Source: Coriobacteriia bacterium (GTDB lineage: Bacteria; Actinomycetota; Coriobacteriia; Anaerosomatales; SLCP01). From it: a stretch of 64,000 nucleotides of DNA. A program made the position numbers and the translations under genes. The stretch lies in assembly GCA_030603745.1 (NCBI GenBank), contig JAUVXE010000012.1, positions 1 to 64,000 on the forward strand, in the 5' to 3' direction. Positions 41,788-43,931 of this stretch are shown one piece after another (position 1 is the stretch's first letter; every line of letters starts with the position of its first letter). Below the pieces are notes generated by a model. It was not told where the DNA came from, searched no databases, and saw only the letters and a list, made by a program, of their open reading frames with translations.

Positions 41788-43422
<1,635 letters not shown>

Positions 43423-43461: not shown

Positions 43462-43498
43462 CAGGAAGGCCCCCGGCGATCCGCCGGGGGCCTTCCTG
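43462..43498 (+). terminator. Terminator hairpin after groEL
   Basis: CAGGAAGGCCCCCGGCG and CGCCGGGGGCCTTCCTG form a perfect 17-bp stem with the three-base loop ATC. No T-run follows, but the stem is the strongest in the window. It separates groESL from the next gene on the same strand. Confidence 0.8.
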
Positions 43499-43589
43499 CG
43501 TCACGACGGCGCGTGCCGGAGGCGGAGGCTTGTGGCGGGAGGCCGCGTGCCGGGCTACACTGGACCGGCCGACGATCGGGGAGGTTCGA

Positions 43590-43931
43590 ATGGACGCCGA
43601 GTTCATGCGGGAGTGGACCCGCATCAGGACCGAGCACACGCACGACCGCGACGCCGCGAACAACTACGGGTGCTTCAACGTCGAGGCGTGCCGCAACTGC
43701 AACTACGTCTACAACTCGCGTGGATGCATCAGCTGCCACAACTCCGACAGCGTCATCGAGTGCGTGCAGTGCGTTGACTGCCGTGACTGCGCCTACTGCG
43801 TGGGGCTCAACGGGGCGCGGTTCCACATCCTGAACAAGGAGTACTCCGAGCAGGACTACTACGCGAAGCTCGCCGAGCTCGGTGTCGATCCGAACGTCGA
43901 AGCGTTCGATCCGCTGCTCGACGCCTTGTGA
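43590..43931 (+). CDS. Cysteine-rich protein of unknown function
   Basis: This 113-residue protein has ten cysteines between residues 28 and 70 (positions 28, 34, 37, 46, 49, 58, 61, 64, 67, 70), in CxxC-like spacing such as CVQCVDCRDCAYC. The last cysteines form a run with exact three-residue periodicity. The C-terminal part reads FHILNKEYSEQDYYAKL, which recalls orphan families with Cys-rich repeats ending in NKEYS. No signal or membrane segment is seen. It may bind zinc or an Fe-S cluster. The start follows GGGGAGG. It converges on the glycosyltransferase. Confidence 0.75.
   Translation: MDAEFMREWTRIRTEHTHDRDAANNYGCFNVEACRNCNYVYNSRGCISCHNSDSVIECVQCVDCRDCAYCVGLNGARFHILNKEYSEQDYYAKLAELGVDPNVEAFDPLLDAL

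Follow-up and report, generated by a model that had tools for sequence, protein, structure and literature searches.

A gene lying downstream of groESL in the window (the whole stretch of 64,000 nucleotides analysed) encodes a protein of 113 residues with ten cysteines in a single phase modulo 3, conserved within the host's order (Anaerosomatales) and related to a family of larger repeat proteins in the ultra-small Patescibacteria. The function considered most probable, at roughly 0.36, is that of a cytosolic thiolate metal buffer, a reading prompted by heavy-metal exporter genes beside or near some copies.

A conserved gene with its cysteines in one phase

Cysteines occur at positions 28, 34, 37, 46, 49, 58, 61, 64, 67 and 70, neighbouring ones being 3, 6 or 9 residues apart, and the translation bears out the preliminary description, which had noticed ten cysteines within residues 28-70, the last five spaced by three. 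When residues 28-70 were shuffled, none of 200,000 permutations matched the placement of all ten in one phase, while the corresponding values were p = 0.007 for the run of five cysteines at i+3 taken alone and p = 0.0015 for the number of CxxC pairs. A pattern lacking conservation had been named as grounds for giving up the idea; the pattern proved to be conserved in an alignment of 23 sequences (the reference protein and 22 orthologues, with L014 omitted as a duplicate of L013), where each sequence has 9-11 cysteines, none is out of phase, and seven positions (28, 49, 58, 61, 64, 67 and 70) are invariant. C34 is replaced by Ser in two sequences, C37 by Ser in four and C46 by Ala in three, and position 52, a Ser in the reference, is Cys in 12 of the 23. 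The four proposed core residues of coil 4 (Table 1) are all Cys, each invariant in 23/23 sequences. Conservation extends beyond the cysteines, with 47 invariant columns overall and, in the EHTHDRD motif, E15, H16, T17, D19, R20 and D21 invariant and H18 almost so.

Compared with 23 orthologues, the frequency of differences is 0.30 at third codon positions and 0.11 and 0.08 at the others, and codon differences comprise 485 synonymous and 326 non-synonymous changes; since third positions are the most divergent, the sequence behaves as protein-coding, and it is a genuine conserved gene. Its start codon is supported by the GGGGAGG site and by the onset of orthologue conservation. Together with the TACACT box and the stem-loop after groEL, this site makes a separate transcript for the gene probable; a similar TACAAT/TACACT box is found upstream at about the same place in many orthologues (by eye, no statistic).

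Table 1. Coordinates of the cysteine-repeat gene, the segments of its product and neighbouring elements in the window.
Feature	Coordinates	Strand	Basis or remark
Gene, 113-aa Cys-repeat protein	43590..43931	+	Stop codon included; translation, orthologue conservation
N-terminal segment, residues 1-24, with EHTHDRD motif	43590..43661	+	23-sequence alignment
Repeat coil 1, residues 25-36, proposed core N25 C28 V31 C34	43662..43697	+	Period; fold inferred
Repeat coil 2, residues 37-48, proposed core C37 V40 S43 C46	43698..43733	+	Period; fold inferred
Repeat coil 3, residues 49-60, proposed core C49 S52 V55 C58	43734..43769	+	Period; fold inferred
Repeat coil 4, residues 61-72, proposed core C61 C64 C67 C70	43770..43805	+	Fold inferred
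C-terminal cap, residues 73-96 (LNGARFHILNKEYSEQDYYAKLAE)	43806..43877	+	Common to Patescibacteria family
TACACT, likely -10 element	43556..43561	+	By eye, no statistic
GGGGAGG, likely ribosome-binding site	43578..43584	+	Sequence
GC-rich stem-loop between groEL and the Cys-repeat gene, possibly groEL terminator	43468..43492	+	Sequence
groEL	41788..43422	+	At most 2.4 kb upstream of the Cys-repeat gene in 22/32 genomes

A scan of genome contigs returned 24 loci, of which 23 are orthologues (74-90 % identity) and the last is a remote Patescibacteria protein. The gene is present in 32 of the 69 genomes of the Anaerosomatales set, and these remain the only positives among 99 relatives (the same 69 and a further 30 from the class). 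Among 296 genomes drawn from the host's phylum there were five positives, four belonging to the host's order and the fifth being G136, whose copy (L078) is a 621-aa Patescibacteria-type open reading frame on a contig of less than 10 kb and perhaps reflects binning contamination. Searches of plasmids gave no match to the protein up to E 1, and scans of viral contigs turned up a fragment (L079) and a phage (L119). A second match in the host genome was rejected, the open reading frame being multihaem cytochrome-like with repeated CxxCH.

Relatives in Patescibacteria and, probably, in Campylobacter phages

No profile in Pfam or NCBIfam, including those for metallothioneins and 4Fe-4S ferredoxins, matches the 113-aa protein up to E 10, so the view of it as an undescribed conserved protein stands, and the profile search proposed alongside that view led to no well-characterised family. 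The NKEYSEQDYYAKL block had been said to recall other Cys-repeat proteins, and this impression is supported by hhalign, which aligned the family with nine Patescibacteria proteins at 97.4 % (E 1.5e-11) across residues 60-97, a span that takes in the non-Cys cap. The two groups have in common the cysteine phase, a cap resembling GLxxKxYCILNKQYxKEEYEKL and perhaps the 12-residue unit. However, the Patescibacteria proteins are much longer (546-643 aa in 25 of the 28 collected), mostly have two repeat modules ending in the cap, and carry CxxC pairs near both ends, which give treble-clef matches below the cut-off, whereas the 113-aa protein is one module without such ends. Judged by sequence, it is thus a single-module relative of this double-module family and not a full member.

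Matches to the family were found in 12 of 192 Patescibacteria genomes (centre G099 included), with 1 to 21 per genome, the 21 occurring in G394, a genome of about 0.9 Mb. Four loci (L073, L074, L178 and L179) each hold 5 to 8 diverged Cys-repeat proteins, mostly of about 550-610 aa and largely in tandem. The double-module family is, we take it, often annotated as 'CaiB/BaiF family protein'. No published description of the repeat family was found among the papers listed from the open PMC full text (print beyond them may differ), where the phrase 'baif family protein' led to no paper on Patescibacteria, as judged by title.

The gene contexts of the Patescibacteria copies were read in 17 loci from the 12 genomes, all selected for holding the family, and the neighbours are TrmB-type regulators and ATPases of T4SS-coupling type, not metal genes. 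A TrmB-type regulator lies alongside the Cys-repeat gene in ten loci (L073, L075, L181, L184, L185, L187, L189, L190, L074 and L178), eight of them assigned through one similarity group, L074 by Pfam and L178 by its similarity to L074, and a large ATPase of the coupling type (TrwB/DUF87) is present in seven; Pfam was run on three representatives of each. At one locus (L188, 1582-6668), groES, groEL, a TrwB-like ATPase and a Cys-poor repeat protein stand in a row, the groESL pair being named by eye; groESL precedes the repeat gene there, as it does the 113-aa gene.

A more distant resemblance is seen in PHROGs, where the 113-aa protein matches phrog_15341 (unknown function) at E 4.6e-6, two further matches lying above E 3. 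The match covers the Cys-rich region only (residues 27-74 of 113, profile positions 38-85 of 276). The profile in turn matches both Campylobacter phage records searched, with E down to 3.6e-74, and tblastn of the 113-aa protein against phages hits seven records, all Campylobacter phages, with a best E of 0.03. Cys at each third residue and a stretch with matching non-Cys residues (NSxSxIECVxCVxC) are common to the 113-aa protein and the phage proteins, of which the two read have period 3 but not the 12-residue unit. Cysteine makes up 62 of 231 residues in one phage protein (L081, 1366-2061), 60 of them in one phase, and 76 of 284 in another (L119, 3001-3852), 73 of them in one phase. Because the phage matches are of low complexity and tblastn reaches E 0.03 at best, homology appears likely but not secure. 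In phages WX1 and CPt10, the Cys-repeat copy sits between the portal and DNA ligase genes, and the copy in CPt10 is interrupted by an in-frame stop.

Repeat unit and proposed fold

The statistical evidence for a repeat unit comes from the Patescibacteria relatives, in which Cys-Cys distances were counted over residues 111-430 of 28 proteins picked for at least 20 Cys and the cap motif. Enrichment is confined to lags divisible by three and extends to lag 39 (3.12 times expectation at lag 3, 2.00 at 6, 2.90 at 9, 2.81 at 12 and 2.47 at 15), and all other lags stay at or below 0.59 times expectation. The peaks at 3, 9 and 12 with the lower value at 6 indicate a CxxC that recurs each 12 residues. 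The 113-aa protein can be cut into coils of the same length (NYGCFNVEACRN / CNYVYNSRGCIS / CHNSDSVIECVQ / CVDCRDCAYCVG), although for this protein the unit is a tiling and not a statistical result. Within residues 25-76, 17 of the 18 positions in the best phase are C, S, V, I, L, A or T, the exception being N25, and none of 50,000 shuffles equalled this.

The Cys-poor relative at L188 (5946-6668), which matches the 113-aa protein family at E 1.6e-5, has residues of the same set at 30 of 31 best-phase positions (93 residues), again equalled by none of 50,000 shuffles, with Cys at six of the 31 and the phase kept mostly by Ser and aliphatic residues. That a Cys-poor relative keeps the core phase suggests that the every-third periodicity is first a packing pattern: each third residue looks buried, with Cys as one among several permitted core residues. 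The earlier proposal of stacked repeats thereby gains support from the core residue at each third position and from the 12-residue unit of the relatives. The AlphaFold models are of low confidence both for the 113-aa protein with the 23-sequence alignment (mean pLDDT 53.5) and for one phage relative alone (pLDDT 36.9), so the solenoid is a fold that we infer.

Known repeat classes and structures were also considered. Left-handed hexapeptide repeats follow a 2+4 pattern; these and pentapeptide repeats were rejected, as the period is 3 and not 5 or 2+4 and Pfam gives no match. The nine sequences matched in a PDB search were likewise all rejected: their matches cover only residues 89/91-113, and the score of the best, a designer PPR protein at E 5e-7, is the sum of eight repeats at about 2.6 bits each. 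PDB profile searches yielded nothing useful, with one match for A1 (triosephosphate isomerase, E 0.79) and eight weak matches for A2 (best E 0.004), five of the eight being LIM-type and lying on A2's C-terminal Cys pairs.

Gene neighbourhood and candidate functions

The groESL neighbourhood pointed out in the preliminary description is confirmed at the gene's own locus, and groEL is near in 22 of 32 genomes. Among these 22, ychF lies downstream in 20 (two of the matches being weak and 6 kb off) and guaB in 18, within flanks of up to 7 kb that are shorter at contig ends or in short loci. In five genomes (L010, L011, L015, L070 and L095) the ychF match begins 46-64 bp past the Cys-repeat match on the same strand, a spacing suggesting that the two genes may be co-transcribed there.

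A heavy-metal P1B ATPase gene adjoins the Cys-repeat gene or lies about 1.2 kb from it in five of the 32 genomes, which belong to two families (G010 and G025 in one, G024, G038 and G009 in the other), corresponding to two events or perhaps one. In G025 (L022) and G010 (L024) the order is ArsR, P1B ATPase and Cys-repeat gene, the last two on the same strand and separated by 46 and 49 bp, respectively; in G024 and G038 the ATPase gene is the next one after the Cys-repeat gene and has the same orientation, and in G009 it is found about 1.2 kb downstream, accompanied by an ArsR gene. Pfam bears out both regulator and pump at L022 (ArsR, HMA and P-type ATPase domains) and, at L020, the ATPase. The host genome carries an ArsR-ATPase pair on another contig (L116), and in all five linked genomes the nearby ATPase is the best match of this ArsR-linked host ATPase. 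By simple arithmetic, the chance of lying so close to one given ATPase is about 0.2 % per genome. All five linked ATPases exceed the cut-off of TIGR01512 (Cd type), alone or joined with in-frame neighbouring pieces, but this model is unspecific: more than one or two ATPases of a genome clear it, and it also matches in 14 of 14 control genomes, in 13 of them above the cut-off. The Zn/Cd/Pb assignment therefore leans also on sequence motifs that we take to mark this type.

The other 27 gene contexts, some with short flanks, have no heavy-metal P1B ATPase nearby. Co-occurrence with particular pathways had been suggested as a check, and it did not bear out a tie to the P1B ATPase: a match at E 1e-60 exists in 67 of the 69 genomes of the order, and strong matches (E 1e-190 or better) are no commoner among carriers of the Cys-repeat gene (22 of 32) than among the remaining genomes (27 of 37; Fisher p 0.79), leaving ten genomes in which the Cys-repeat gene is present and a strong ATPase match is absent.

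On the favoured reading, the protein would be a mini beta-solenoid in the cytosol, its roughly four coils of 12 residues each surrounding a thiol-lined core and closed by the C-terminal cap. The reducing cytosol would leave the core thiols free, and these could bind a soft or borderline metal, with Zn or Cd as first choice and Cu(I) as second. The protein might then serve as a small metal buffer or donor, from which surplus metal would pass to the ArsR-controlled P1B-type exporter. Counted against this reading are the dispensability of each of C34, C37 and C46 among the 23 sequences, the core phase that the L188 relative keeps mostly by other residues, the lack of a 12-residue unit in the phage proteins and the Patescibacteria neighbours, which are not metal genes. 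It is the gene contexts and the absent co-occurrence, together with the unspecific TIGR01512 model and the ten genomes without a strong ATPase match, that hold the metal buffer at the probability given above and put a purely structural solenoid next, as an unlikely explanation but the foremost of its rivals.

In such a structural solenoid, metal would play no part and Cys would be a small, well-packing core residue; the protein would be a scaffold or a binding adaptor that holds another protein or a nucleic acid through its cap and its outer faces (Asn, Arg, Asp, Tyr and Glu). The small or aliphatic core of the L188 relative fits this, as do the invariant off-phase residues N24, Y26, N30, R35, N36, N38, Y41, N42 and R44 in the 23 sequences and the terminal CxxC pairs of the Patescibacteria copies, with their sub-threshold treble-clef matches. 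However, seven invariant Cys, four of them filling one coil, go beyond the needs of packing, and the exporter neighbourhood in five genomes also speaks against it.

Improbable, by comparison, is a protein holding an Fe-S cluster or another redox cofactor in the CxxCxxCxxCxxC run. CxxC repeats would suit this order if it is OPB41/Anaerosomatales, whose cultivated members pass electrons to Fe(III) or sulfur compounds, according to an excerpt of the published account (PMC9686372), but ferredoxin-type profiles in Pfam and NCBIfam give no match even at E 10 and no redox enzyme recurs as a neighbour in the contexts read by eye. One open reading frame in L093 is ferredoxin-like in appearance (by eye). 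Least probable is a thiol redox buffer or sensor with reversible core disulfides, tied to chaperone and YchF stress functions, for which the proximity of groEL and the closely spaced ychF could be cited, although related genomes often keep their gene order around housekeeping genes, which makes such proximity weak evidence, and lag 6, that of the beetle disulfides discussed below, is rarer than 3, 9, 12 and 15 in the Patescibacteria relatives.

If the fold is correct, bacteria have a solenoid with a core made mostly of cysteine, and the 113-aa protein, being among the smallest forms seen here and hence an easy target to express and solve, would offer a first handle on a large Patescibacteria gene family and also on a functionally uncharacterised phage family. 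If the protein does buffer metal, it would represent a new kind of thiolate buffer, placed beside a heavy-metal exporter in some genomes.

Two known systems invite comparison. A crystal structure shows the antifreeze protein TmAFP of a beetle as a right-handed beta-helix with 12 residues per coil, and in its modelled relative DhbAFP6 residues 2, 5, 8 and 11 point inward, as stated in an excerpt of the source (PMC8038014). The 12-residue repeat, the inward residue at each third position and the core Cys, as that excerpt presents them, would have counterparts in the 113-aa protein, for which a TmAFP-like coil reached by convergence would be a plausible model; kinship in sequence is not claimed. 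In contrast, the beetle fold relies on disulfides between Cys spaced by six residues, and the TCT/TxT motif of its ice face is absent from the repeat region of the 113-aa protein. The likeness to the Csp copper storage proteins, as far as excerpts of the literature describe them, lies in the idea of a Cys-lined core serving as a cytosolic metal store; those proteins are four-helix bundles, whereas the Cys of the 113-aa protein are 3, 6 or 9 apart. A bolder proposal, with the odds clearly against it, is that thiolate-cored beta-helices would form a separate class of intracellular metal stores, the beta counterpart of the copper-storage four-helix bundles, with a core of Cys layers stacked at coil spacing: as few as four coils in these Actinobacteria, two modules in Patescibacteria and at least 60 in-phase Cys in Campylobacter phages, where metal would be bound during infection.
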